Below are positions 17,176-25,191 of a stretch of 33,120 nucleotides of DNA, one piece after another. The notes under the pieces were generated by a model, which was not told where the DNA came from, made no database searches, and worked only from the letters and a program-made list of their open reading frames with translations. Made by a program: the position numbers and the translations under genes. Location: assembly GCA_012513315.1 (NCBI GenBank), contig JAAZCL010000158.1, positions 1 to 33,120 of the forward strand, read 5' to 3'. Source of the DNA: Bacteroidales bacterium. Its GTDB lineage: Bacteria; Bacteroidota; Bacteroidia; Bacteroidales; Dysgonomonadaceae. Each line of letters starts with the position of its first letter. Positions within the stretch are counted from its first letter, which is position 1.

Positions 17176-17229
17176 GAAATAAAGGAGCAAATAACTAAGG
17201 GAAGTATATAAAACTAATGGTGTGTATAT

Positions 17230-17258
17230 AAAAAAGGAAAGGTTGTCTCACGACAACC
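17230..17258 (-). terminator. Intrinsic terminator of the candidate small transcript
   Basis: Perfect 7-bp stem GGTTGTC/GACAACC with GTGA loop, followed on the minus strand by TTTCCTTTTTT. Confidence 0.65.
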
Positions 17259-17299
17259 AATCTTCATTGTTAACCTTAAATCTAATACCATGAAAAACA
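17230..17299 (-). ncRNA. Candidate small transcript of about 70 nt with its own promoter and intrinsic terminator (may contain a 25-aa ORF)
   Basis: Minus strand: TATATTTG (17305-17312) then AACGTGTTTTTCATGGTATTAGATTTAAGGTTAACAATGAAGATTGGTTGTC-GTGA-GACAACC-TTTCCTTTTTT. Confidence 0.5.
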
Positions 17300-17477
17300 C
17301 GTTGCAAATATAGGGTATTTTTTAATACCGAACATGATTTTCATGAATAAATATGAGATATTTTGCACCGTTTAACACAATTTGCCGCGATTAAACAGTT
17401 TTTTATCATGTATGCCTCATTTTTATATCTTTTTTCTCCTATTGTGCCGTTTTATATATCTAAATTTATATTGAACT

Positions 17478-18671: not shown

Positions 18672-19243
18672 TAACTCTTTTGGGTTAAGTGATTATAAAT
18701 GCGTAAACATGCCCAGGCATCAATTGCTGCGTATGATTGTTGTGCAGGCGAAAGTTCGGCCGCCTCCCAGTTTGATAATCTTTGACTTTTTGATATTTTT
18801 TGTCCGAATAAAATGGCATAGATTTTTTGAAGACTATTATCCTCAATATCAAATTTATCTACAAATAATTGTAAATCGATAAAATTCTCTGGCGTTTTGC
18901 CAGTTCGTTTTCTTAGTGCTGCAAAATCATCGCGAAGTGAAAGACCTATTTTTTTTACGTTTGCATTGCTCATCAAATCTTCTAGCTCTTTGGGAAAACC
19001 AATCTTGTTTAGTCTGAATAAATAGCATTTTTCTTCTGTAGCTAATTGTAATAGTGCAACATTATTTATCTGGCCACGTTTAAACGCGGGTTTTGTCTCG
19101 GTATCAAATCCAATAACGGTTTTGGATGATAAATGATTTACTGCATCTTTTACTTGAGCTATATGATCTACTACAATAATATCTCCGTTATATACTACTC
19201 TATCGAGTTCTGCAATTTGTTGTTTTGTAATAGTTAATCCCAC
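18671..19243 (-). CDS. 3'-5' exonuclease (DEDD/RNase D-like)
   Basis: VIGFDTETKPAFKRGQINNVALLQLAT (Exo I), LRDDFAALRK, YAAIDAWACLRIY (Exo III). Its stop overlaps the methyltransferase start by 1 nt. Confidence 0.9.
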   Translation of the reverse strand: MGLTITKQQIAELDRVVYNGDIIVVDHIAQVKDAVNHLSSKTVIGFDTETKPAFKRGQINNVALLQLATEEKCYLFRLNKIGFPKELEDLMSNANVKKIGLSLRDDFAALRKRTGKTPENFIDLQLFVDKFDIEDNSLQKIYAILFGQKISKSQRLSNWEAAELSPAQQSYAAIDAWACLRIYNHLTQKS

Positions 19244-19803
19244 AGTTCCTCCTGATTTAAAAAGCTCCCGTCAGTAACGTCATTTTCTTTACTTAACAGA
19301 GCATGCAAAGGACGTAGTACATTTATAAGTTTTTGTCCCCAGTATGATTTAAAATTATTTGTGCAAATTTCTAGAGCGCTTTCCATTTGACTTGTAAGCT
19401 CGAACTGATATACCGAGATAAAATTTCTAATATCTTGATAAACGTCTGCTATATTTTCTGAAATGAATGCCGAAATAGGACGATCACTATATTTCATATC
19501 TTCAATGAAAACATCTAGATATATATCTTCTTCTCCCATGATTTCAGAGACTCTGAGTTCTACTCTAGAGTAATCTTCTTCCTGTACAAATATTTCGGGC
19601 ATTTCATCAAAAGAAGCTACTGTTTCGGGCAACAACGAAGCTTTAAGGTAAAGTAGAGGTAGAATCTTTAACATTCTATCAATCCATTCTGTCCTAGGCA
19701 ATATCTCATCACCTTCGAGTATTGCACAAAATTCAACCGACACTGTAACAAAATCTATTACATTTTTGTCGTATATTATCCTATCGTTTTCTATCTGTTC
19801 CAT
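19234..19803 (-). CDS. DUF5063 domain-containing protein
   Basis: MEQIENDRIIYDKNVIDFVTVSVEFCAILEG...FVQEEDYSRVELRVSEIMGEEDIYLDVF; synteny with the exonuclease and methyltransferase. The listed ORF start at 19914 runs past the promoter-like box, so ATG at 19803 is preferred. Confidence 0.75.
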   Translation of the reverse strand: MEQIENDRIIYDKNVIDFVTVSVEFCAILEGDEILPRTEWIDRMLKILPLLYLKASLLPETVASFDEMPEIFVQEEDYSRVELRVSEIMGEEDIYLDVFIEDMKYSDRPISAFISENIADVYQDIRNFISVYQFELTSQMESALEICTNNFKSYWGQKLINVLRPLHALLSKENDVTDGSFLNQEELWD

Positions 19804-19852
19804 ATGACAAAAGTACATAATATTTTCGATAAAGAATATATATTTAAAAGGA

Positions 19853-19908
19853 GCAGTTTTATTTTTAAATAGCACCAACTCAATAGTGAGGGTATTAAAA
19901 ATAACTGC
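19853..19908. repeat. 56-bp imperfect palindrome in the DUF5063/rimP divergent promoter region
   Basis: GCAGTT(TT)ATTTTTAA ... TTAAAAATAACTGC arms, with inner ACC-AA-CTCA-ATAG-TGAG-GGT. Confidence 0.6.
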
Positions 19909-19914
19909 AAACAT

Positions 19915-19945
19915 TTTGTGAATCCGTTTGAAAACTATATCTTTG
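19915..19945 (+). promoter_or_regulatory. Bacteroidota-type promoter of the rimP-nusA-infB operon (TTTG-N19-TATCTTTG)
   Basis: TTTG at 19915-19918, 19-nt spacer, TATCTTTG at 19938-19945; matches the -33/-7 consensus. Confidence 0.75.
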
Positions 19946-19961
19946 TAGTTGAAATGAATGA

Positions 19962-19991
19962 GGGGAAGCAGGAAATACCGCTTCCTTTTTT
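19962..19991 (+). terminator. Intrinsic-terminator-like hairpin in the rimP leader (candidate attenuator)
   Basis: GGGGAAGC-A-GG-AAATA-CC-GCTTCCTT followed by TTTT, just downstream of the promoter and 18 nt before the rimP start. Confidence 0.7.
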
Positions 19992-20008
19992 ATTCGATAG
20001 AAACTTAT

Positions 20009-20473
20009 ATGATCGAAAAGAGTATGCTTTTAGAACTCATTAATGAGTATTTGAAGGATTCATCAAATTATTTGGTGGAGGTTTCTATTGGTTCTGCCAA
20101 CAGTATTACTGTTGAAATTGACAATGACGAAGGGGTTAGCATTGAAGAATGTGTTGCTCTAAGTCATTATATAGAATCGAAGCTCGATCGGGAAACCGAG
20201 GATTTTGAACTCACGGTTACTTCGGCCGGATTAACATCGCCATTAAGAACTTTACGTCAATATAAAAAATTTGAAGGCAAAGAAGTAGAGGTACTAAGTA
20301 AGAATGGTAGAAAATATAAGGGTGAACTTAAGACTTCCAATGAGAACGGATTTACGATTATCGTAACCACAAAAATAAAACCGGAAGGCGCCAAACGAAA
20401 AGTTGAAATGAGTGAAGATATCAGCTTTAAGTTTGATGAGGTAAAATATACAAAATATCTGATTAGATTTTAA
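20009..20473 (+). CDS. rimP: Ribosome maturation factor RimP
   Basis: VEVSIGSANSITVEIDNDEGVSIEECVALSHYIESKLDRETEDFELTVTSAGLTSPLRTLRQYKKFEGKEVEV; upstream of nusA. Start at ATG 20009 preferred over 19958, which lies in the hairpin. Confidence 0.92.
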   Translation: MIEKSMLLELINEYLKDSSNYLVEVSIGSANSITVEIDNDEGVSIEECVALSHYIESKLDRETEDFELTVTSAGLTSPLRTLRQYKKFEGKEVEVLSKNGRKYKGELKTSNENGFTIIVTTKIKPEGAKRKVEMSEDISFKFDEVKYTKYLIRF

Positions 20474-20480
20474 ATAACAT

Positions 20481-21839
20481 ATGGGCAAGAAGAAAGATAC
20501 CATAAGCCTCATAGATACATTTTCTGAATTTAACGAGCTGAAAAATATCGATAAGGCAACGCTTATCAGCGTACTTGAAGAAGCATTTAGAAACGTAATA
20601 TCTAAATCTGTTGGAACAGATGAGAATTATGACATTATAATTAATCCAGACAAAGGTGATTTGGAAATCTGGCGTAACCGTGTAATAGTGGAAGATGGTG
20701 AGCTGGAAGATCCCAATATGGAGATAACTATTTCAGAAGCTCTTAAAATTGACGACGACTTTGAAGTAGGAGAAGAACTTACTGATGAAGTTCACCTTGA
20801 GCATTTTGGGAGGAGAACGATTCTAAACCTTCGTCAAACTCTTTCTTCCAAGATATTAGAACTTGAAAAAGACAACCTATATAATTTATATAAAGACAAG
20901 GTTGGAGAAATTGTATCAGGTGAAGTATATCAAGTATGGAAAAAAGAATTACTATTACTTGATGATGATCATAATGAACTTATTCTACCTAAAACAGAAC
21001 AGATACCTAGTGACTTCTTCCGTAAAGGAGAACATGTAAGGGCAGTTGTGGCTAGAGTAGAAAACAAAAACAACAACCCAAAAATAATTCTTTCACGTAC
21101 GTCAATTGTATTTCTAGAGCGCCTGTTTGAACAAGAGATTCCTGAAATAGCTGATGGGCTTATTACTATTAAAGGAATTGCCAGAATACCTGGAGAAAGA
21201 GCAAAGGTAGCAGTAGAAGCTTATGATGATCGTATAGATCCGGTTGGAGCCTGTGTTGGTATGAAAGGTTTTAGAATTCACGGGATTGTGCGTGAATTGC
21301 GCAATGAAAATATTGATGTTATTAATTATACTAATAACACTTCACTATATATACAACGTGCTTTAAGCCCTGCCAGGATTAACTCTATTACGATAAAAGA
21401 TGAGGAAAATCGCGCAGAAGTATTTCTAAACCCCGAAGAAGTTTCACTTGCAATTGGCAAGGGAGGAGCTAATATTAAGCTGGCATCTATGCTAACTGGA
21501 TACAACATAGAAGTATTTAGAGATATAGATGAAGTAGATGAAGAAGATATTTACCTAGATGAGTTTCGTGATGAAATTGATGGCTGGGTAATTGATCAGC
21601 TGAAAAAAATTGGGTGCTCGACAGCTAAAAATGTACTAGAAACTAGCAGAGAAAGACTCATTAAGGAGGCAGACCTAGAAGAAAGTACAGTAGATGAAAT
21701 TCTAGCCATTTTAAGGTTTGAATTTGAAGATGAAACCGAAGAAGCAGAAGATGTTGAAAATGTTGACGACATTGATTATATTGATGATGTTGAGAAAACA
21801 GAGGACAATGATGTAGTTGAAGACACCAATGTTGACTAA
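20481..21839 (+). CDS. nusA: Transcription termination/antitermination factor NusA
   Basis: S1 and KH domains: GEIVSGEVYQVWKKELLLL, VKGIARIPGERAKVAVEAYDDRIDPVGACVGMKGFRIHGIVRELRNENIDVI, LAIGKGGANIKLASMLTGYNIEV; acidic C-terminal tail. Confidence 0.95.
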   Translation: MGKKKDTISLIDTFSEFNELKNIDKATLISVLEEAFRNVISKSVGTDENYDIIINPDKGDLEIWRNRVIVEDGELEDPNMEITISEALKIDDDFEVGEELTDEVHLEHFGRRTILNLRQTLSSKILELEKDNLYNLYKDKVGEIVSGEVYQVWKKELLLLDDDHNELILPKTEQIPSDFFRKGEHVRAVVARVENKNNNPKIILSRTSIVFLERLFEQEIPEIADGLITIKGIARIPGERAKVAVEAYDDRIDPVGACVGMKGFRIHGIVRELRNENIDVINYTNNTSLYIQRALSPARINSITIKDEENRAEVFLNPEEVSLAIGKGGANIKLASMLTGYNIEVFRDIDEVDEEDIYLDEFRDEIDGWVIDQLKKIGCSTAKNVLETSRERLIKEADLEESTVDEILAILRFEFEDETEEAEDVENVDDIDYIDDVEKTEDNDVVEDTNVD

Positions 21840-21921: not shown

Positions 21922-24900
21922 ATGCCTATTAGACTAATAAAAGTTTCGAAAAATTTAAATGTGGGAATAAACAGCCTTGTTGAATTTCTGCACAAAAAAG
22001 GTATTGAAGTAGAAGCAAACCCCAATGTAAAAATTGAGGATGAACATTACAATTTACTTGTTACTGAGTTTGGTAAAGACAAAAGCATCAAACTTGAAGC
22101 GCTGGAAACACGTGAAAAGCTGCATCGTAGAGATGATAAACGTGATACGGTAGCAATAGAAGGTTATGATCTGCCTGAAGATCGAGCACCTAAAAGAAGT
22201 GCAAATAAAGAAACAATAGAGACTGAAATTCCACAAGAATTAAAACCTCAATTAAACGTAATAGGCAATATCGATTTAGAAACCTTGAATAAAAAGCGTA
22301 CTCCTTCTTTGAAAACCAAATCAGAATTGGATAATAAGAATAAAGAGGAAGTTTTAAAAGAAGAGAAAACTGTTGAGGTAGAACCTAAAAAACCAGTAGA
22401 ATCCAAAACTGACATACCAGAATCTAAAGCAACAGTTGAAACCGAAGACATTAAGATTCCTGAAAAAGAAATTAAGGTTGAAGATTCTCCAAAAAAAGAT
22501 AATGTTGTTGCTTCTGAAGTAGAAGAAAGCTTTGAAAAAGAGGCAGAATCTATTTCAAAAGCTGTGCCTATTAAAGAGAAAAAAACTATTGTCGAAACAG
22601 AGTCTAAACCAGTAGTCGGAGCAGAGATAGAAAAAGAAAAGGTTAAAGAAATAAAAGCAGAGGTAATAGCGGATAAAGGAGCTGAAATTACAGACCCCAC
22701 GATACTAGAACCATCAAAGGAATCACAGAAAACTGTAGAAAAGATCGAAACTAAGAAACAGACTGTAGAACCGATTAAAGAAGAACCGGCTACAAAAGAA
22801 AAAGCAGCTTTTAAGGTTGAAGATGTTAAAACAGAGGAATTAAAATCTGAAGAAGTCAAACCAGATGAAGAAGCAGCTAAACCAGAAGGGAGATCTGTAA
22901 AAGTATTCAGACTCAACAAAAACAAGCTGGAGTCGAATATAGTAGTAAAAGGATCAATAGATCTAAGTACTATTAACGACCGTACACGCCCTCCGAGGAA
23001 GTCAAGAGCAGAACGCAAAAAGGAACGATTAGAACGTGAACAAAAAAGCCTTGACGGAAAAAAGCTAAAAGATGAAAAAATAAAACTGCTAAAAAAAGAA
23101 ACTATCGACGAGCAGAAGAAACATCCTCAAGCCGCTGACAGTACTGACGATAATAAGAAGAAAAAACGTAAACGTATACGTTCAGGTAAAGTTAATTTGG
23201 AAAAACCTGGGAGCTTCAACCAATCATCTACAACTGCTAGAAGAGGTGATAGAAAAGCAACTCTAAGAAAACCGGTTAAAGCTGAAGTAAAAGAAGAGGA
23301 TGTACAAAAACAAATCAAAGAAACTCTAGCTCGCCTAACAGAAAAAAGAGGCAAGAAAGGTGGAGCAAGATACAGACGCGAAAAACGTGAAGCCAGTGCT
23401 ACAAAGCAAAGAGAGGAAATCAAACAGCAGGAAAGAGAAAGTCTTACATTGCAACTCACTGAGTTTGTAACTGCTAACGATTTGGCTAACATGATGGATG
23501 TACCTGTTACTGATGTTATCTCTACCTGTATGAGCCTTGGTGTTATGGTTGCTATTAACCAGCGTTTGGACGCAGAAATAATCAATCTTGTTGCTGAAGA
23601 ATATGGATTTAAAACCGAATATGTAAGCGCAGATGTAATTGAGGCAATTGCAGAAGAGGTTGATAATCCAGAAGATCTTATTCCACGTTCTCCCATTGTT
23701 ACAGTTATGGGTCACGTAGATCATGGTAAGACATCTCTACTTGACAGTATAAGGAGTACTAATGTAATTGGTGACGAAGCAGGTGGTATAACACAGCATA
23801 TTGGTGCTTATAACGTAGAATTGCCAAGTGGAAGAAAGATTACTTTCCTTGACACTCCCGGTCACGAAGCATTTACAGCTATGCGTGCACGTGGTGCTAA
23901 AGTTACTGACGTTGTTATAATTATAATTGCTGCAGATGATAATGTGATGCCACAGACTGTTGAGGCAATTAATCACGCTGGCGCAGCAGGTGTACCAATT
24001 GTGTTTGCAATTAACAAAATTGACAAAAATGGCGCAAACCCTGAAAAAATAAAAGAAAGGCTTGCCGAGATGAATTATCTTGTTGAGGATTGGGGCGGTC
24101 AATACCAATCTCAAGAGATTTCGGCTAAAAAAGGAATAGGCATACGAGAACTTCTTGAGAAAGTTTTACTTGAAGCTGATTTACTTGAACTAAAAGCTAA
24201 TCCTAACCGTAGTGCTTCGGGTTCAGTTATAGAATCGGAATTAGATAAAGGTCGTGGTTATATTTCAACTATACTCGTTGAAAATGGCACATTAAAACAA
24301 GGTGACATTGTATTAGCCGGGGCTTATTTCGGTAAAATAAGAGCAATGTTTAACGAACGTAATCAACGAATTGAGGAAGCAGGACCTTCAGAACCAGCTC
24401 TTATACTTGGACTTAACGGAGCACCTCAGGCAGGCGACACATTTAATGTTATGGAAACTGAGCAAGAAGCACGTTCTATTGCCAGTAGAAGAGAACAGCT
24501 ACAGCGTGAGCAATCAATGAGAACTCAAAAAATGCTAACACTCGATGATATTGGTAGAAGAATTGCCATAGGTAATTTCCAACAACTAAATATTATTGTA
24601 AAGGGTGATGTTGATGGATCAGTTGAAGCTCTTTCAGACTCATTGATACGTCTTTCAACCGAAGAAATTCAAATTAATGTAATTCATAAAGCAGTAGGTC
24701 AAATTTCAGAATCAGATATTACACTTGCTGCCGCATCAGAGGCAATTATCATAGGATTCCAGGTTCGTCCATCTTTAGGTGCGCGTAAAGAAGCAGAAAA
24801 ATCAGGAGTAGATATACGTTTATATTCTATTATTTACGATGCTATTGAAGAAGTTACTGCTGCAATGGAGGGTATGTTGTCTCCAGATATTAAAGAAGAG

Positions 24901-25191
24901 ATTACAGGAAACGTAGAAGTTCTGGATGTGTTTAAAGTATCTAAAGTTGGTACGGTTGCTGGAAGTATGGTGCGTGATGGCAAAATTAAACGTTCAAGTA
25001 AAATACGCTTAATACGTGATGGTATAGTAATTTTCACTGGTGTACTTGATTCTCTCAAGAGATTTAAAGATGACGTTAGAGAAGTTTCAGTGGGATACGA
25101 ATGTGGTATTACTATTCAAAACTTCAACGATATAAAAGTAGGTGATATTATTGAATCATATGAAGAAATTGAGGTTAAGAAAACCTTGTAG
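21922..25191 (+). CDS. infB: Translation initiation factor IF-2, long Lys/Glu-rich N-terminal region
   Basis: IF2_N start [28 protein letters not shown]-domain [39 protein letters not shown]. Confidence 0.97.

Follow-up and report, generated by a model that had tools for sequence, protein, structure and literature searches.

What role does a hairpin play that lies between a promoter and the first gene of the rimP-nusA-infB operon? The window, which is the whole 33,120-nt stretch of DNA analysed here, comes from a Fermentimonas-like Dysgonomonadaceae genome, and its nearest RimP match (90% identical) belongs to a Fermentimonas MAG. On the plus strand, the window carries rimP (20009–20473; Pfam PF02576 and PF17384; ATG at 20009–20011), nusA (20481–21839; PF08529 and PF13184) and infB, encoding IF2 (21922–25191; PF11987 and PF04760). 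The original prediction placed a promoter, a hairpin and a T-tract in front of rimP and interpreted them as an attenuator of the operon. A minimal transcription attenuator, with NusA as the most likely controller, is in our judgement probably the best explanation.

The promoter-proximal hairpin of the rimP operon

Direct reading of the sequence confirmed the predicted layout. A −33 element TTTG (19915–19918) is followed, after N19, by the −7 element TATCTTTG (19938–19945), which is of the Bacteroidota TAnnTTTG type. From this geometry, transcription would be expected to start at about 19951, leaving only a very short leader (19951–19961) before the stem. The hairpin (19962–19987) begins about 11 nt past the expected start site. 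Its 5′ arm (19962–19972) is composed of GGGGAAGC (19962–19969), a bulged A (19970) and GG (19971–19972), its loop is AAATA (19973–19977), and its 3′ arm (19978–19987) is composed of CC (19978–19979) and GCTTCCTT (19980–19987), with the final two stem pairs being G-U; both arms were assigned from sequence, folding and covariation. The U-tract TTTTTTATT (19986–19994) contains a T-run at 19986–19991 and then ATT, with RNA 3′ ends predicted at about 19988–19994, and the distance from the T-tract to the ATG is about 14–21 nt. Folding of the 44 nt that begin at the expected start gave −14.2 kcal/mol (z = −3.4), a stability equalled in 1 of 200 shuffles. As had also been predicted, the gene upstream of the promoter, a DUF5063 gene, is divergent, and a T-tract after the stem was absent from the minus strand.

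The listed start (19914) of the DUF5063 ORF, at 19234–19914 on the minus strand, directly adjoins the rimP promoter, and an internal ATG near 19806 is more likely to be its true start. A strict terminator scan of the window did not list the hairpin site, probably because of the bulge and the G-U pairs. We also rejected a coding extension of rimP from an ATG at 19958, in frame across the hairpin in the window and, by reading, in L002; this ATG is probably not the rimP start, since related leaders (L003 and others) have no in-frame start there.

The TTTG element was found 19 nt 5′ of the −7 box in 16 of the 17 nearest loci (L002–L018). In Dysgonomonadaceae (window positions 19914–19945 and L002–L018), the −33 to −7 stretch (TTTTGNNAATNCNTTTGAAAA...TATCTTTG) was near-invariant, spacer included, and a genome search gave only one exact copy of it; the stretch is possibly an additional regulator site.

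Conservation and covariation across Bacteroidota

One scan of a genome collection with RimP returned 80 Bacteroidota rimP loci, and when the leaders were read and folded, a hairpin with a T-tract was present 5′ of rimP in all 80. The hairpin was usually located just past the TAnnTTTG box, which lies 5′ of it in 78 of the 80 loci with a median box-to-stem gap of 25 nt, and was farther upstream in L007 and L052. Tails with at least 5 T in 10 positions were found in 77 loci, and poor T tails were seen in L025 and L054. Terminated RNAs would be expected to measure about 48 nt across the loci and about 40 nt in the window. To avoid sampling close relatives alone, we also sought RimP in 118 genomes drawn evenly across the phylum, located it in 117 and took 60 upstream regions, all of which contained a terminator-like hairpin upstream of rimP, although in some lineages the top-scoring scanned hairpin was not the one nearest the gene. 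rimP and nusA were adjacent in 60 of the 61 genomes compared, and the lone exception was at contig ends.

A uniform terminator scan (dG ≤ −8) detected terminators in 134 of 140 rimP leaders and in 7 of 140 dinucleotide-shuffled copies. The opposite strand scored in 41 of 140, where some stems are symmetric. In 400 kb of a relative from the same genus (G012), the same scan was positive in 4 of 42 divergent upstream regions and 9 of 135 codirectional gaps. Judged by these sequence comparisons, the rimP-leader hairpin is not a product of chance. Several leaders (L070, L073, L074, L075, L079 and others) have a stem flanked by A-runs on its 5′ side and T-runs on its 3′ side, and their opposite strand also scores; such hairpins could terminate in both directions.

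Counted by parsimony on one reconstruction of a quick RimP tree covering the 80 loci, the eight stem pairs changed doubly (compensatory) 26 times and singly 32 times, with about 4 unpaired cells. Pairs for these counts came from 3′-arm-anchored folds, replacing a MAFFT alignment of all stems in which the 5′ arms were misregistered. In a phylum-wide stem set hand-picked from the scan output, the mean pairing energy was −14.8 kcal/mol for own arms and −5.3 kcal/mol for swapped arms. The check proposed with the original prediction, stem conservation and covariation in relatives, thus came out in its favour (80 loci, 60 further genomes and the compensatory double changes), and conservation, covariation and position give strong support to its claim of a promoter-proximal intrinsic terminator acting as the rimP-nusA-infB attenuator.

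The stems themselves vary greatly. The Dysgonomonadaceae, window included, have GGGAAGC..GCUUCC and most Bacteroidia have GGGGAC..GUCCCC, while other stems in the phylum include GAGGGGAC..GUCCCCUC, GAGGCACGC..GCGUGCCUC, AUAGCCCG..CGGGCUAU, AAUCGCCCC..GGGGCGAUU, AGUGGG..CCCACU and GAUGGGC..GCCCAUU. A single covariance model (R1) of the GGGGAC-type stems matched 58 of 297 genomes at E ≤ 0.01, some of its matches lay away from rimP, and it missed the stem type of the window. It failed as a phylum-wide model because the stems are too diverged, and position-based sampling beside RimP was used instead. In seven loci (L048, L053, L056, L057, L058, L060 and L064), a tRNA-Gln (TTG) gene separates the hairpin from the promoter region.

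Leaders of nusA and rimP in other bacteria and in a family apparently lacking rimP

The window element closely resembles the published rimP-leader, which ranked first in frequency among attenuators across 302 genomes (Naville and Gautheret 2010, PMC2965389). Both are located upstream of rimP-nusA-infB and consist of a Rho-independent terminator with a G-rich 5′ arm, a C-rich 3′ arm and a T-stretch. The general form of the rimP-leader was described without an aptamer or an antiterminator (PMC2965389), and the window likewise has neither in visible form. The terminator of the rimP-leader lies 4–130 nt before the gene, a range that includes the distance in the window. Unlike the rimP-leader, the Bacteroidota element has its promoter only about 10–30 nt before the stem. 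The stem of the window, GGGGAAGC..GCUUCCUU, also differs from the GGGc(...)gCCC stem of the rimP-leader (PMC2965389), a motif that we did find in the leaders read from two other families, f41 and f33. The authors proposed that a specific stem motif is recognised and that the controller is NusA or, as another possibility, RimP, leaving the choice between the two open (PMC2965389). The main text of that paper does not name Bacteroidota, and its supplementary species lists may include some.

The Rfam rimP family (RF01770) was rejected as a direct match: it was absent among the window matches, and none of 21 genomes (that of the window and 20 relatives) reached its 47-bit gathering cut-off, the best score being 33 bits. 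An Rfam search of the site returned no relevant described cis-element family, riboswitches and T-boxes included, even with the limit relaxed to E ≤ 10, and tRNA and FopS were the only matches in an Rfam search of 20 related loci. A match to RF04319 (BTncRNA_FopS; 77.6 bits), a family of paralogous Bacteroidetes sRNAs, is located at 17227–17300 on the minus strand of the window, and L026 carries another FopS copy (1244–1316) about 185 nt ahead of rimP.

In B. subtilis, NusA is autoregulated via NusA-stimulated termination in the leader (PMC12288461, citing Mondal et al. 2016). The window shares with that system an intrinsic terminator in the 5′ leader of a nusA-carrying operon. NusA dependence has been shown in B. 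subtilis and is a proposal for the window, and the leaders differ in length (about 180 nt in B. subtilis, PMC2965389, versus about 40 nt). The metY-rimP-nusA-infB operon of E. coli has two terminators, t1 and t2, upstream of rimP (PMC6511841). Read by eye, its leader, like that of the window, has a hairpin (in E. coli GGGC-uuua-GGCCC) with a T-run just before rimP, and a tRNA gene (metY) is located upstream, as in some Bacteroidota; unlike the window, it has tandem terminators, several promoters and RNase III processing. Within the phylum, F. psychrophilum has been reported to carry a structured 5′ element ahead of rimP that is conserved across the Flavobacteriaceae and has no Rfam match (PMC9723704). 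This element precedes the same gene as the window element and its 5′ region was mapped experimentally; the passages of PMC9723704 that list it give neither a mechanism nor a tie to the rimP-leader or NusA. nusA goes unmentioned in the main text of the B. thetaiotaomicron map, and a literature search on premature termination in Bacteroides returned nothing.

Evidence on the associated gene came from family f41 (G129 and relatives; L239–L269), which lies outside the class of the window and was reached via G129, a genome without a RimP match. RimP_N was detected in 1 of 54 f41 genomes, NusA_N in 47 and IF-2 in 48, mostly near nusA, and tblastn of the fetched f41 loci with the RimP of the window gave no match. 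On one Pfam model and this locus-level tblastn, the family appears to have lost rimP, and a highly diverged RimP might be encoded elsewhere. A terminator (dG ≤ −6) was found before nusA in 27 of 30 evaluable f41 leaders compared with 9 of 90 shuffles, and a GGGC..GCC pattern with a T-run in 27 of 30 compared with 1 of 90. By comparison, only 2 of 76 rimP-containing loci had a terminator in the 170 nt before nusA. The terminator before nusA in f41 implies that the element is tied to the front end of the nusA-infB operon and has no need of rimP.

NusA feedback and its alternatives

Under the proposed mechanism, RNA polymerase starting at about 19951 would meet an intrinsic terminator within about 40 nt; part of the transcripts would end at the hairpin, and the remainder would continue into rimP-nusA-infB. 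The adjustable step is most likely the efficiency of termination, since no aptamer, leader peptide or antiterminator was visible. Pairing of the leader with the 5′ arm showed no excess over shuffled leaders (means of −0.87 and −0.98 kcal/mol). NusA, itself a product of the operon, would promote pausing and hairpin formation, so that more NusA would give more termination and hence negative feedback. What we observed is the promoter, the hairpin, the U-tract, their conservation and covariation, and the association with nusA-infB where rimP is missing; from these features we infer termination in vivo, its partial nature and its control by NusA.

The sequence evidence for the terminator would serve equally for a constitutive, unregulated terminator whose fixed readthrough fraction sets the operon level against a strong promoter. 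Neither a sensor nor an antiterminator was seen, and the leader tails are like those of 3′ terminators: a weaker U-tract in the leaders was considered and dropped, as the leaders had 5.5 T in 8 and the 3′ terminators of a relative, a set of only 14, had 5.3. Because the leader U-tracts are not measurably weaker, the terminator itself gives no pointer to NusA. We nevertheless consider a constitutive terminator unlikely, as a weaker promoter would suffice without a phylum-wide structure, the element fronts the gene of a termination factor and stays with that gene upon loss of rimP, and the equivalent site in B. subtilis is regulated. Attenuation by another product or signal, such as RimP, IF2, a ribosomal protein, NusG, or nucleotide or ppGpp effects on elongation, seems somewhat less probable again. 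RimP has been named as a possible controller, infB is kept in the f41 operon, and NusG likewise promotes intrinsic termination in B. subtilis (PMC8060035). RimP could not act in f41, where the terminator is present and rimP was not found; no protein-binding RNA domain is visible beyond the stem, and the stem sequence turns over widely.

Two further roles fit the locus far less well. The first, a terminator shielding rimP from transcription that enters from upstream or ending an upstream tRNA transcript, would suit the seven loci with tRNA-Gln between promoter and hairpin and has a parallel in the tRNA-Met gene (metY) upstream of rimP in E. coli. It is very improbable for the window and most relatives, in which promoter and hairpin have no same-strand gene between them, the gene upstream is divergent, and the region from the T-tract to the ATG, only 14 nt, contains no −7 box. 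The stem does lie at the expected 5′ end of the mRNA, where a stability hairpin or a translation-control structure could be placed. Such a role is hardly credible, as the T-tract, unneeded for stability, is kept with the stem in 77 of 80 loci and the orientation is strand-specific (134 versus 41 of 140).

Among regulatory readings, NusA dependence is better supported than RimP dependence, and the placement of the element in f41 favours feedback by NusA over RimP. Further points count against the NusA model. At about 40 nt from the start, termination would come early relative to NusA recruitment. In the seven tRNA-Gln loci, the hairpin would end the tRNA transcript too. IF2 or a general signal may be responsible instead, as nusA and infB could not be separated by lineage: the two genes remain close together both in the f41 table and in that of the phylum sample.

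The attenuator type is already known, and since the published rimP-leader is widespread, it is no peculiarity of Bacteroidota. What appears to be new is that the attenuator occurs phylum-wide with a stem sequence that has turned over greatly, and that a putative terminator fronts nusA in a family apparently lacking rimP. We regard the Bacteroidota form as a variant with a turned-over stem sequence and, in one family, as a nusA leader proper, for which NusA control is the most likely candidate. A broader reading is that of a phylum-wide, nusA-linked attenuator whose place and shape are kept while its stem sequence is almost wholly replaced between lineages, which fronts nusA upon loss of rimP, and through which NusA would feed back via hairpin strength and U-tract rather than a recognised RNA motif; we see the case for it as evenly balanced. 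These data bear on the choice between RimP and NusA, as the element stays with nusA-infB where rimP is missing, and on motif recognition, as the stem and U-tract are conserved phylum-wide and the stem motif is not. The question of the controller is now accessible to experiment in Bacteroides thetaiotaomicron, Flavobacterium johnsoniae and similar laboratory Bacteroidota. Family f41 is also, in its own right, a whole Bacteroidota family seemingly without RimP, a 30S maturation factor, in which nusA-infB has been retained.
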